A DNA stretch of 64,000 nucleotides from Acinetobacter sp. ANC 4169 (GTDB taxonomy: Bacteria > Pseudomonadota > Gammaproteobacteria > Pseudomonadales > Moraxellaceae): positions 186,001-250,000 of the forward strand of contig NZ_NEGE01000003.1 of NCBI RefSeq assembly GCF_002135355.1, written 5' to 3'. Under the pieces are notes generated by a model. That model saw nothing but the letters and a program-made list of their open reading frames with translations. It was not told where the DNA came from and did not search any database. Positions 8,910-15,112 of this stretch are shown one piece after another. Numbering within the stretch: the first letter of the stretch is position 1; each line of letters starts with the position of its first letter. Made by a program: the position numbers and the translations under genes.

Positions 8910-11207
8910 ATGTCGAATATGCAACTGGATACCTTAAGACGCATTGTGCAAGAAATCAATGCGTCCACCAGTTTGCATGAGTCACTCGACATCATGGTCA
9001 ATCAGGTGGCCGAAGCCATGCATGTAGATGTCTGCTCCATCTATCTGCTGGATGAGCGTAACCAGCGTTATCTGCTCATGGCATCTAAGGGATTGAATCC
9101 TGAAGCTGTGGGACATGTTTCTTTGCACACCAGCGAGGGACTAGTGGGACTGGTGGGACAACGCGAAGAAATCGTCAATCTGGACAATGCACCAAAGCAC
9201 GAACGCTTTATGTACCTGCCTGAAACCGGGGAAGAAATTTATAATTCTTTCTTAGGCGTTCCTGTCATGTACCGCCGTAAAGTGATGGGCGTTCTGGTGG
9301 TGCAAAATAAAGAATCTCAAGATTTTAGCGAAGCCGCTGAATCCTTTCTGGTCACTTTGTGTGCCCAGCTTTCCGGTGTGATTGCCCATGCCCATGCGGT
9401 CGGCAATATCGATGTATTCCGCAAGCCAAGTAACCTGCCCGCTTATAAAACCTTCCAGGGTGTTTCAGGTTCAGGTGGAATTGCCTTAGGTCGTGCCGTC
9501 ATTCTCTATCCGCCTGCAGATCTGGCTGCCGTACCGGACCGTGAAGCGGATGACATCAGTGAAGAACTGGAACTGCTTGATCATGCGCTGAATGCAGTGC
9601 GTCAGGAAATTCAATCACTTGATGAAAAAATGCAGGATGCCTTAATGGCTGAAGAACGGGCTTTATTTAGCGTGTTTTTGCGCATGCTGGATGAAAATGC
9701 TTTACCTTCTGAAATTAAAGCTGAAATCCGCGATGGTAACTGGGCACAAGGTGCAGTCAGGAATGTCATAGATAATCACATTGCCCTGTTTGCACAAATG
9801 GAAGATGATTATTTACGCGAACGTGTGTCTGACCTGAAAGATCTGGGGCGTCGCATTTTAGCCTTTTTACAGGAAGCTGATGCCAGCCATCGCGAACTGA
9901 CTGATGAAAGCATTCTGATTGGGGAAGAAATTTCAACGGCAGCCCTGGTTGAATTACCGGTCGATAAAATCGCCGCGATTGTCACCACTGAAGGTGCCAT
10001 GAATTCACATATGGTGATTGTGGCACGTGCGCTGGGTATTCCAACTGTGGTGGGTGTGACTGAACTGCCAATCAATACCCTGGATGATGTCGAGATGATT
10101 GTCGATGCCCATCAGGGACGTGTATTTATCAATCCGCCTCGCCGTTTGCGTAGCCGCTATAAAGAAATCCAGAAAGAAGAAGAACAGCTTGCTAAAGACT
10201 TAAAGCAATACGAAACCAAAGATGCCATTACTCCGGATGGGGTGGCCGTTAAACTGTTTGTGAATACCGGTTTGATGATTGATGTAGTACGTGGGGTACA
10301 ACGTGGCGCTAAAGGCGTCGGTTTATACCGTTCTGAAATTCCGTTTATGCTACGTGACCGCTTCCCCGGCGAAGAAGAACAGCGTGCCATTTATCGTCAG
10401 CAGCTTAGTCACTTTGCCAATAAACCTGTGGTGATGCGGACCCTCGACATTGGTGCAGATAAAGATTTACCCTATTTCTCGATTGAAGAAGAAAACTCAG
10501 CGCTGGGCTGGCGCGGCATCCGTTTTACCCTGGATCATCCTGAAATTTTTTCTGCACAAATTCGTGCCATGCTCAAAGCCAGTATTGGTCTGAATAACCT
10601 GCACATTTTACTGCCCATGATCACCAGTGTCAGCGAAGTAGAAGAAGCCTTATATCTGCTTGACCGTGACTGGGCCGCAGTGCAGGAAGAAGAGCAGGTT
10701 AAAATTACCAAGCCCAAAATTGGCATTATGGTTGAAGTACCGAGTGTGCTGTTACAGATTGAAGAATTTTCTGAGCTGGTGGATTTCTTCTCGGTCGGTT
10801 CCAATGACTTGACCCAGTATTTGCTGGCAGTTGACCGTAATAATCCTCGGGTTGCCAATGTCTATTCTCACTTCCATCCTGCGGTTTTACGTGCCTTGAC
10901 CCGTCTGGTTCAGGAATGTCATAAATACGATAAACCGATCAGTATTTGTGGAGAAATGGCCGGAGATCCATTGGCGGCTGTACTGTTAATGGCGATGGGC
11001 TTTAATACCCTGTCGATGAGTTCAAGTAATATTTTGCGGGTGCGTAAAGCGATTTGTCATGTTCCAATGACCGACGCGCAGGAACAGCTGGAACGGGTAT
11101 TAAAAATGAGTAATCCGCTGATGATTAAAAGCTGGATGGAGTATTACTTCAAGACCCATGGTCTGGGGGATATGGTGAAATCTGCAACCCGTATTGTAGG
11201 TGCTTAA
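8910..11207 (+). CDS. ptsP: phosphoenolpyruvate-protein phosphotransferase PtsP (enzyme I-Ntr)
   Basis: First enzyme of the nitrogen-related phosphotransferase system; it takes phosphate from phosphoenolpyruvate and passes it to NPr. The 765-residue product has a GAF domain (about 5-160), the helical NPr-binding domain, the phosphohistidine segment TTEGAMNSHMVIVARALG with active His367, and a C-terminal TIM barrel with GSNDLTQYLLAVDRNNP and the ICGEMAGDP signature. The ATG follows a GGAG. The GAF domain and length separate PtsP from the sugar-system PtsI. It ends at the bidirectional terminator 11241-11277 shared with a convergent small gene. Confidence 0.97.
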   Translation: MSNMQLDTLRRIVQEINASTSLHESLDIMVNQVAEAMHVDVCSIYLLDERNQRYLLMASKGLNPEAVGHVSLHTSEGLVGLVGQREEIVNLDNAPKHERFMYLPETGEEIYNSFLGVPVMYRRKVMGVLVVQNKESQDFSEAAESFLVTLCAQLSGVIAHAHAVGNIDVFRKPSNLPAYKTFQGVSGSGGIALGRAVILYPPADLAAVPDREADDISEELELLDHALNAVRQEIQSLDEKMQDALMAEERALFSVFLRMLDENALPSEIKAEIRDGNWAQGAVRNVIDNHIALFAQMEDDYLRERVSDLKDLGRRILAFLQEADASHRELTDESILIGEEISTAALVELPVDKIAAIVTTEGAMNSHMVIVARALGIPTVVGVTELPINTLDDVEMIVDAHQGRVFINPPRRLRSRYKEIQKEEEQLAKDLKQYETKDAITPDGVAVKLFVNTGLMIDVVRGVQRGAKGVGLYRSEIPFMLRDRFPGEEEQRAIYRQQLSHFANKPVVMRTLDIGADKDLPYFSIEEENSALGWRGIRFTLDHPEIFSAQIRAMLKASIGLNNLHILLPMITSVSEVEEALYLLDRDWAAVQEEEQVKITKPKIGIMVEVPSVLLQIEEFSELVDFFSVGSNDLTQYLLAVDRNNPRVANVYSHFHPAVLRALTRLVQECHKYDKPISICGEMAGDPLAAVLLMAMGFNTLSMSSSNILRVRKAICHVPMTDAQEQLERVLKMSNPLMIKSWMEYYFKTHGLGDMVKSATRIVGA

Positions 11208-11214
11208 AAAAGAT

Positions 11215-11406
11215 TTATAGAACAGCAAATACTGTGCAAGAAAAAGGGAGATAGTCATTTGAGTATCTCCCTTTTTTGTGCTTGTCATAGCCACGTTTTG
11301 CATTTTTCTTGCGGTCTACAAAGACCTGGCTTTTGTTGACTTCATACATATGTTTTGCCACAAAGTTGTGAATCACAACCTCTGGCAGTACTTTTTTCTT
11401 TGCCAT
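11215..11406 (-). CDS. small basic protein whose frame runs through its own terminator without a stop
   Basis: A 63-codon gene on the strand opposite ptsP. ATG 11406 has AGGTGA seven bases ahead. The product begins MAKKKVLPEVVIHNFVAKHM and continues with a lysine/arginine-rich stretch (RKKNAKRGYDKHKKGRY). From codon 47 the frame enters a strong terminator hairpin (stem GGGAGATA/TATCTCCC, then T5), and the first in-frame stop lies beyond it at 11215. Transcripts that end at the T-run would lack a stop codon. The same arrangement is known for the ribosome-rescue factor ArfA, which is made from non-stop mRNAs and limited by tmRNA. The typical ArfA motif KKGKGSY is not present, so homology is not claimed. 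It may instead be an uncharacterised family whose stop was lost. Confidence 0.65.
   Translation of the reverse strand: MAKKKVLPEVVIHNFVAKHMYEVNKSQVFVDRKKNAKRGYDKHKKGRYSNDYLPFSCTVFAVL
11241..11277. terminator. bidirectional terminator between ptsP and the small convergent gene
   Basis: AAAAA, then the perfect 8-bp stem GGGAGATA/TATCTCCC with a 10-base loop, then six T; it has a U-run on either strand. On the minus strand it lies inside the coding frame of the gene at 11215-11406. Confidence 0.93.
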
Positions 11407-11651
11407 TTTACTCACCTGTTTTTCAAGTTTCACATCATGGATGATGTTGAACATATATTGCGCTATTTTCTTAAAATTTCAAGTGGATTAAGCTTTTCGA
11501 TTTAGCTATATCTAACTATCTGCTAAATAAAAATCTCCTCTACTTTTAAGGCAAGAAATTATTCTTTTCTAGACTAAACAAAAACTTAAAACTGTATCCA
11601 ATACTAGTTGATCACTACAATGATTCAGCAAGAGGGAAAATAATATTATTT

Positions 11652-14098: not shown

Positions 14099-15112
14099 AT
14101 TATTGGAAAGAAGCAAGATGAGCTAGCATTCTGCTTCCGACCGACCAAAGTCAAAGTTGCATCATGAACTATACTCATCTTACCCAAGAAGAAAGATATC
14201 AGATTTATACCTTGTTACGTGAAGGTTTTTCTAAACGTTATATTGCTTCGAGACTGAATCGTTCCCCTTCAACCATTTTTAGAGAAATCAAACGTAATCG
14301 AGCCAGAAATGGCTATTTCGCTAAACATGCCCATAAACTAGCTCGAAGACGCCATTGTCCCAATCCTAAAACAATCCCGGGTGAAATGTGGGCACATGTC
14401 ACCTCTTATCTTGAGCTTCAATGGAGTCCTGAACAGATCGCTTCTCGTGTTCCAGTCAGTTTGCATTCAATTTATCGCTTCATACGCCAGGATAAAAACA
14501 AGGGCGGTACACTCTTTCACAACCTACGTTTCAGAAATCAAAGAAAGAGGAAATACGGCTCTACTGAAACCCGTGGTCAGTTGAGCAACCGTAAAAGTAT
14601 TCATGACAGACCTATGGAGATTGAGCAGCGCACTCGCTTTGGGGATCTGGAAATAGATACGATTGTGGGTAAGAACCATCAGCAATCATTGGTTTCAATT
14701 GTAGATCGCAAGACAGGTTATTTATGGCTGAAGAAGTGCAGCTCACGCAAGGCAGAGGAAATTTGCCAAGCAACCATCAGTTTGCTTAAGCCGGTCAAAG
14801 ATCAGCTACAGACGATTACCGCAGATAACGGTAAGGAGTTCAGCCTGCATGAGTATGCTGCTGAAGAATTAGGGATAGACTGGTATTTCGCTGATCCTTA
14901 TAGCGCCTGGCAACGAGGCACGAATGAAAATACCAATGGCTTAATCAGGCAATATATTAGAAAAGGCAGTGATTTGAATGCCTATACGGATGAATATATC
15001 TCAGAAATTACTCAACGTTTGAATCATCGGCCAAGAAAAAGACTCGGCTTTAAAAGTCCGAGTCAGGTATTATGGCAACAACATGGTGTTGCACTTCAAA
15101 TGCTAATCTAAG
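14065..15112 (+). mobile_element. intact IS30-family insertion sequence (1048 bp)
   Basis: The ends are imperfect 26-bp inverted repeats (22 of 26 matching) at 14065-14090 and 15087-15112, sharing CTTAGATT at the tips and TGAAGTGCAACA inside. The direct repeat TAA flanks both sides (14062-14064 and 15113-15115), giving a 3-bp target duplication. The single transposase gene is full length, and its stop codon lies inside the right repeat. The element occupies the last codon of the ancestral tetR gene. Confidence 0.93.
14164..15111 (+). CDS. IS30-family transposase
   Basis: A 315-residue DDE transposase. The N-terminal helix-turn-helix region reads YTHLTQEERYQIYTLLREGFS, then IASRLNRSPSTIFREIKRN, typical of IS30. 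The catalytic residues are Asp165 (GDLEIDTIVG), Asp221 (TADNGKEF) and Glu255 (NENTNGLIRQY), giving the 33-residue D-E spacing of this family. The C-terminal HRPRKRLGFKSP motif is present. No frameshift or internal stop is seen, so the enzyme is probably active. Confidence 0.96.
   Translation: MNYTHLTQEERYQIYTLLREGFSKRYIASRLNRSPSTIFREIKRNRARNGYFAKHAHKLARRRHCPNPKTIPGEMWAHVTSYLELQWSPEQIASRVPVSLHSIYRFIRQDKNKGGTLFHNLRFRNQRKRKYGSTETRGQLSNRKSIHDRPMEIEQRTRFGDLEIDTIVGKNHQQSLVSIVDRKTGYLWLKKCSSRKAEEICQATISLLKPVKDQLQTITADNGKEFSLHEYAAEELGIDWYFADPYSAWQRGTNENTNGLIRQYIRKGSDLNAYTDEYISEITQRLNHRPRKRLGFKSPSQVLWQQHGVALQMLI

Follow-up and report, generated by a model that had tools for sequence, protein, structure and literature searches.

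The question raised by the locus described here is whether a bacterial gene whose message appears to end ahead of any stop codon is built that way by design, and what its protein might then do for the cell. By analogy, such a message would resemble those of proteins known to release stalled ribosomes as a back-up. The gene lies in a stretch of 64,000 nucleotides from Acinetobacter sp. ANC 4169, referred to below as the window, and its relatives were compared across the genus, in other bacteria and in phages.

The reading frame and its hairpin

The original prediction for this DNA, that the frame of a small basic-protein gene runs into a strong terminator with no stop codon before it, was confirmed by direct reading: the stop, TAA at 11217-11215, is past the hairpin (Table 1). 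The hairpin is entered from codon 44 of the 63-codon frame, and the GGG in that stem occupies codon 46 (11271-11269), not the codon 47 at which entry had been placed. The MAKKK-type start common to most relatives supports the ATG at 11406; an alternative upstream in-frame ATG, at 11454, would give a protein of 79 amino acids. We expect the 3' end of the transcript just past the T-run, an inferred end point that would leave about 55-56 sense codons and no stop.

Table 1. Features of the DUF7230 locus and its neighbour, in window coordinates
Feature	Position	Strand	Basis
DUF7230 (PF23876) frame, ATG 11406 to first in-frame stop, 63 codons	11215..11406	-	sequence read directly, and profile match
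Shine-Dalgarno-like AGGTGAG, 4 nt upstream of ATG	11411..11417	-	read from sequence
Conserved core N14 to H43 (NFVAKHMYEVNKSQVFVDRKKNAKRGYDKH)	11278..11367	-	pN/pS 0.114 genus-wide
Terminator-like hairpin within the frame, 13 pairs (11276-11264 with 11253-11241, loop 11263-11254)	11241..11276	-	fold and comparison
T-run, foot of the hairpin 3' arm	11241..11245	-	read from sequence
Read-through codons from T-run to stop; hydrophobic, sequence not conserved	11218..11240	-	genus comparison
First in-frame stop TAA, beyond the hairpin	11215..11217	-	read from sequence, and genus loci
Convergent neighbour, presumed ptsP-like	8910..11207	+	frame coordinates

The RNA fold of the hairpin has a predicted energy of -22.1 kcal/mol (z -6.46), and none of 200 shuffled sequences folded as well. 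A separate terminator scan did not list this hairpin, probably because of the loop limit of that scan and because the T-run is itself paired. Our own scan of the window returned 44 terminator-like hairpins. For 18 of them an open frame of 100 or more amino acids has its stop no more than 150 nt upstream, and none started ahead of the stop of such a frame; the 63-codon DUF7230 frame itself falls under the size used in that scan. The overlap of hairpin and frame is exceptional in the window, and more than chance. The hairpin may also terminate the convergent neighbour, which we take to be ptsP-like. Elsewhere in the window, positions 14164-15111 (+) hold a 315-aa transposase-like ORF, presumably of the IS30 type.

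Conservation of the layout in Acinetobacter

The PF23876 profile found one copy each in 70 of 119 Acinetobacter genomes. In all 70 loci the in-frame stop lay beyond the hairpin and T-run, 45-84 nt after the GYxKH codons. A second set of 64 named loci, all labelled Acinetobacter and including A. kookii, schindleri, lwoffii, guillouiae, towneri, indicus, tandoii and others, overlaps largely with the first (18 of the 64 have a hairpin segment unseen in the 70); it showed the non-stop layout in 64/64, with a 7-pair stem core intact in every one. Orthologues with a stop ahead of the hairpin would have refuted the prediction, and the comparison yielded none, 0/70 and 0/64 in these overlapping sets. 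One locus of the named set, L129, is labelled Acinetobacter baumannii strain ACIN00150, the sole such label among the 64, and may come from a mislabelled species.

A scan for an uninterrupted stem succeeded in 68 of the 70 loci, and in the remaining two (L011 and L070) the 7-pair core is present, with a mismatch deeper in the stem. Stem positions 4-10 were paired in every one of the 45 distinct hairpin segments, and over these segments 95.4% of stem cells were paired, as against 88.6% after shuffling. Cells changed on both sides numbered 32, compared with 11.9 in shuffled rows, and involved 5 pairs; for neither quantity was any of 500 shuffles as high, and slid registers of the stem alignment gave at most 69.6% paired. 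These figures carry the caveats that the stem was derived from the same rows, that the rows are related, and that both arms are under coding constraint. The codons before the hairpin are protein-constrained (core pN/pS 0.114, 66 distinct rows). Those of the hairpin tolerate amino-acid change (pN/pS 0.441, pN 0.155), yet no stop occurs among them. As far as sequence comparison can establish it, we regard the hairpin-before-stop layout as confirmed to be real and under selection.

It had been suggested that a -1 slip on the A6 run before the stem might bring ribosomes to a stop in the loop, such that the mRNA would not be functionally non-stop. The A6GG sequence together with a -1 frame stop in the hairpin does exist in the window, and in 29 of the 70 loci. 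However, 35/70 loci do not start the segment with A6GG (they have AAGCAAGGG, AGACAAGGG, AAACAAGGG and others instead), and 23/70 have no -1 stop in the hairpin. With A6GG in 35/70 and both features in only 29/70, slippage is contradicted as a conserved mechanism, and we give it hardly any weight.

The hairpin might instead be a mere bidirectional terminator shared with the convergent neighbour, in which case the missing stop would be accidental and without regulatory meaning. In favour of this, each of the 70 loci has the ptsP-like gene pointing towards DUF7230, inside the fetched flank in 55 and 0.56-2.0 kb away in 15; a T-run is present on either strand of the hairpin; and in some loci (L003, L006, L043) a further convergent frame intervenes. 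Yet the ptsP end is more than 0.5 kb away in 22/70 loci and the hairpin is still kept; other frames, several of them convergent too, lie between in those of the 22 that were inspected, and in L070 the next frame seems co-directional. Since ptsP converges in all 70, this argument rests on distance and intervening frames only. It is joined by evidence from the genomes without DUF7230: the 45 of these 49 that had a ptsP end to read contained no DUF7230 remnant beside it, and in the ones inspected ptsP has its own terminator. (Four weak HMM hits beside ptsP, with E 0.02-0.15, were rejected as remnants; they are ptsP terminators whose stems read similarly.) An accident would also have to allow for the absence of any stop in 70 loci whose stem codons tolerate change, and for recurrence of the layout in other bacteria and phages. 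Because the hairpin is kept in all 70 loci, and because the 45 genomes lack any remnant, we conclude that it belongs with DUF7230. A role for convergent neighbours as well is probable, but that the hairpin does nothing else appears to us improbable.

The codons beyond the hairpin were examined for their composition. Among 61 distinct Acinetobacter tails, charged residues made up 2.9%, compared with 9.6% (sd 1.3) in 300 shuffles; the 2 other frames of the same T-rich DNA gave 6.0% and 8.3%, and frame-specific selection for hydrophobicity is therefore only suggested. Ends in -AA occurred in 22/70 Acinetobacter frames, but in just 8/54 distinct tails, against a background of 1/51 window frames, 4/93 frames of the Acinetobacter loci and 5/185 frames of all loci. 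Outside the genus, 6 of 8 DUF7230 proteins whose stop is enclosed in a hairpin end in -AA, and 0 of 13 others; the tmRNA tag ANDESYALAA ends likewise. That such ends act as ClpXP-type signals on the full-length product is an inference for which we have no test. Full-length ArfA of E. coli is described as unstable and hydrophobic in the passages used of one review (PMC8012679), and a similar hairpin with a hydrophobic end is stated for P. aeruginosa ArfA in an excerpt of another paper (PMC13159725).

The protein and its ribosome-rescue background

The window protein matches Pfam DUF7230 with 56.5 bits (curated cut-off 27) over residues 11-51. DUF7230 is a family of unknown function, as is PHROGs family 1359, which the protein also matches (E 1.8e-8); NCBIfam gave no above-cut-off match. 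A search of open-licence literature by title and start of abstract returned nothing on DUF7230 or this gene, which, within that literature, is apparently not in print.

Membership in ArfA was tried and rejected. The profile PF03889 had no match to the window protein at E up to 10, and profile-profile comparison of DUF7230 with ArfA (hhalign) gave probabilities of 0.8% and 0.4%. That the ArfA motif is absent, as predicted, was thus borne out; by eye, none of the DUF7230 rows inspected contains KGKGS, and the ArfA control rows carry KGKGS or KGKGA. The hhalign alignment does place SQVFVDRKKNAKRG against DKLFRQRVEKKRKG of ArfA, but with a probability below 1% we claim no homology for it. The window protein also had no match to PF00472 (RF-1, GGQ domain), and so did not meet the criterion for ArfB. 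A search for solved-structure relatives found none at E up to 10, and an AlphaFold model from 30 rows was poor (pLDDT 60), with a helix at 15-27. The likeness to ArfA would be one of gene layout, as judged from sequence; that the protein is an ArfA is not established.

The genome itself encodes a tmRNA (186.8 bits) with the tag ANDESYALAA; tmRNA was sought in this genome only. The ArfA profile matched none of the 119 Acinetobacter genomes in a search in which E. coli gave a match. The genome has 2 RF-1-domain matches, which we read as RF1 and RF2. A third such match was present in 12/119 genomes, all 12 of them with DUF7230 (G005, G035, G044, G048, G051, G062, G063, G072, G078, G086, G092, G093); ArfB and PrfH were not distinguished. 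RqcH was not detected in Proteobacteria in a survey of >15,000 genomes, according to the part of that report consulted (PMC11633108). With no ArfA match, only two RF-1-domain matches and no RqcH detected in Proteobacteria, DUF7230 is the sole candidate back-up factor seen here. In 49/119 genomes we found neither DUF7230, ArfA nor a third RF-1-domain match, which indicates that the genus can live without DUF7230. An A. baumannii smpB mutant is mentioned in the available portion of one paper (PMC12321068); the DUF7230 status of that strain was not established.

We think it probable, with considerable reserve, that the product of the DUF7230 gene is under tmRNA control and acts, like ArfA, as a back-up in ribosome rescue, while belonging to a separate family. 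The mRNA would normally end at its own terminator, ahead of any stop codon. While trans-translation works, tmRNA would tag the nascent chain for destruction and hold the protein at a low level, and the rare read-through product would acquire a hydrophobic tail. Failure or overload of trans-translation would let an untagged peptide of about 50-56 amino acids escape and serve as a back-up rescue factor; its GYxKHK-type basic tail would enter the vacant mRNA channel, and its N-terminal region would recruit a release factor, in the manner of ArfA and BrfA. The comparisons established the layout and the selection on it, the constraint on the protein, the presence of tmRNA, the lack of an ArfA match and the limit of two RF-1-domain matches. 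The earlier suggestion that this is a similarly tmRNA-controlled protein is supported by the layout (no stop before the hairpin in 70 or 64 loci, with recurrence in other bacteria and in phages). The 3' end in vivo, tagging and tmRNA control, ribosome binding, release-factor recruitment and rescue activity are all inferred, without experiment. The absence of detectable ArfA homology, of a solved-structure relative and of a model better than pLDDT 60 counts against the rescue-factor reading, as do the 49/119 Acinetobacter genomes without the gene and the ordinary stop without a clear hairpin in 9/21 cellular members outside Acinetobacter and in 3 members from T4-like phages.

Next after the rescue-factor reading comes one that accepts a genuinely non-stop gene under tmRNA control but takes its product to be another small ribosome- or RNA-binding protein, for which the status of tmRNA serves as a switch. 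The layout evidence (70/70, 64/64, covariation) holds whatever the function, and the lack of ArfA homology and the normal stops of T4-like phage and some cellular members would suit such a protein. On the other hand, the genes designed to be non-stop in the cited passages are rescue factors, ArfA and BrfA (PMC6881298, PMC8012679), the basic GxY stretch and the hairpin are, by eye, positioned much as they are in ArfA, and the genome has no other recognised Arf. We consider a switch of this kind possible, although unlikely.

Members in other bacteria and in phages

DUF7230 matches besides our genome were found in 9/244 genomes of the order and 12/369 of the class, 2 of the latter 12 being under the cut-off; together these form a set of 21 non-Acinetobacter cellular loci (the order of one genome, G472, is represented by only 2 genomes). 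A hairpin precedes or encloses the stop in 12/21. In L072, L074, L076, L078, L079, L080, L082 and L083 a long, almost perfect duplex surrounds the stop; a terminator with T-run lies ahead of it in L086 and L087, and a hairpin without T-run in L075 and L081. Neither layout is clear in the other 9 (L073, L077, L084, L085, L088, L089, L228, L229, L230). For the stop-enclosing form, 8/20 DUF7230 genes reached a score of at least 40, as against 18/156 control frames (Fisher p 0.003). The threshold was picked after the scores had been seen, L075 was left out, and the gene's own stop was excluded from the controls. These controls are open frames no shorter than 120 codons and not necessarily genes, and several of the DUF7230 loci form sister pairs within one genus. 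A first local score of at least 30 was reached in 12/21 genes and 21/89 controls, L072's own 126-codon frame being probably among the latter. With all 20 cellular members included, a rank test on the hairpin scores was not significant (p 0.09), and MFE pair counts around the stop failed to discriminate, the mean being 14.7 pairs in 80 control frames.

As a yardstick, 21 ArfA loci were examined with the same kind of script, and showed the same two layouts: a hairpin ahead of the stop, for example in L090, L092, L094, L096, L099 and L107, and a stop inside the hairpin, often with an -AA end, in L104, L105, L108 and L109. Ends in -AA occurred in 5/21 ArfA loci, L091 being the other, and L098 shows neither layout clearly. 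The ssrA-tag-like -AA C-terminus that ArfA genes with a stop in the hairpin often encode is a feature of which we noticed no mention in the available literature passages. In both families, by eye, the hairpin begins a few codons after the basic GxY stretch. In a class sample of 274 genomes, DUF7230 occurred in 10, ArfA in 3 and both in none; mutual exclusion was considered and dropped, these numbers being too few to mean anything.

In a tblastn search, the window protein matched 23 phage records and no plasmid; one non-Acinetobacter member, L081, had no match among phages. Pfam confirmed DUF7230 in 4/4 phage proteins scanned. Over 25 viral loci, a hairpin lay before the stop in 19, abutted it in 2 and was absent in 4, namely three T4-like phages (L233-L235) and L248, a doubtful match. 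The hairpin at or just before the stop is found in DUF7230/PHROG 1359 genes carried by jumbo phages of enterobacteria and others (L231, L232, L236-L247, L249-L255). Phages CBB (L231, L237) and GAP32 (L238, L253) are each counted twice, and other viral loci are near-identical. The source contigs of L242, L245 and L247 are <140 kb long, and the remaining hairpin-bearing loci lie on records of some 350-380 kb. For 8 of the 19 loci with a hairpin before the stop, the stem is followed directly by the stop; an RNA that ends in the T-run may then contain this stop, and a non-stop message is not assured there. Compact phage genomes may favour overlaps of hairpin and stop. In the record of phage Munch (L250) the depositors themselves annotated a terminator at 724-748, inside the CDS at 598-750.

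For a wider proposal we regard the chances as evenly balanced. By this proposal DUF7230/PHROG 1359 would be a distinct tmRNA-controlled family of alternative rescue factors without detectable relation to ArfA, serving bacteria in which neither ArfA nor ArfB was found and also acquired by jumbo phages, with 2 routes to a non-stop message (a terminator before the stop, or a stop within a duplex of the RNase III kind) and ssrA-like -AA read-through ends as backing. If it holds, jumbo phages would carry their own rescue factor, a possibility that is raised here for giant phages. The accessible part of a 2021 review states that further small rescue proteins that recruit release factors may exist and be hard to find by sequence (PMC8012679). 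It is gene layout, not sequence, that points to the present candidate, in a genus in which no ArfA was found and most genomes yielded no third RF-1-domain protein either. A family of unknown function is thereby made directly testable, and a search by layout for others is suggested.

Comparison with known rescue systems

ArfT of Francisella, as described in the portion available of its report (PMC6299226), has 40 amino acids, a basic stretch likened to KGKGS and a role as back-up to trans-translation. By the same account it has no terminator or RNase III site before its stop, unlike DUF7230, and its motif as printed there, KKGGSTNKK, differs by eye from the DUF7230 core. The PHROG 1359 proteins of jumbo and T4-like phages belong to the same family as the window protein; most jumbo members read have a hairpin at a similar place, whereas the three T4-like members have none.

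ArfA (PF03889), from E. coli and other proteobacteria, resembles DUF7230 as a small basic protein with a hairpin before or around the stop, a frequent hydrophobic or -AA read-through end and, by eye, a basic GxY stretch shortly ahead of the hairpin. The non-stop product of DUF7230 would have about 55 amino acids, compared with the 52-55 given for mature ArfA in the same source excerpt (PMC6299226). Unlike ArfA, DUF7230 has no profile match and no KGKGS, its core reading N-x-VAK ... F-x-DRKK-x-x-KRGYxKHK. BrfA and ArfA are made from non-stop mRNA, according to the passages cited (PMC6881298, PMC8012679). BrfA (YqkK) of Bacillus subtilis shares with DUF7230 a Rho-independent terminator in the coding region and, as stated in the excerpt, a non-stop mRNA under tmRNA control (PMC6881298), and differs in its Gram-positive host and its length of about 62 amino acids. 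Of the features by which genes of the ArfA and BrfA kind are recognised, DUF7230 has tmRNA in its own genome, the only one searched for it, and the hairpin before the stop, which was found in 70/70 and 64/64 loci and is supported by covariation of the stem.
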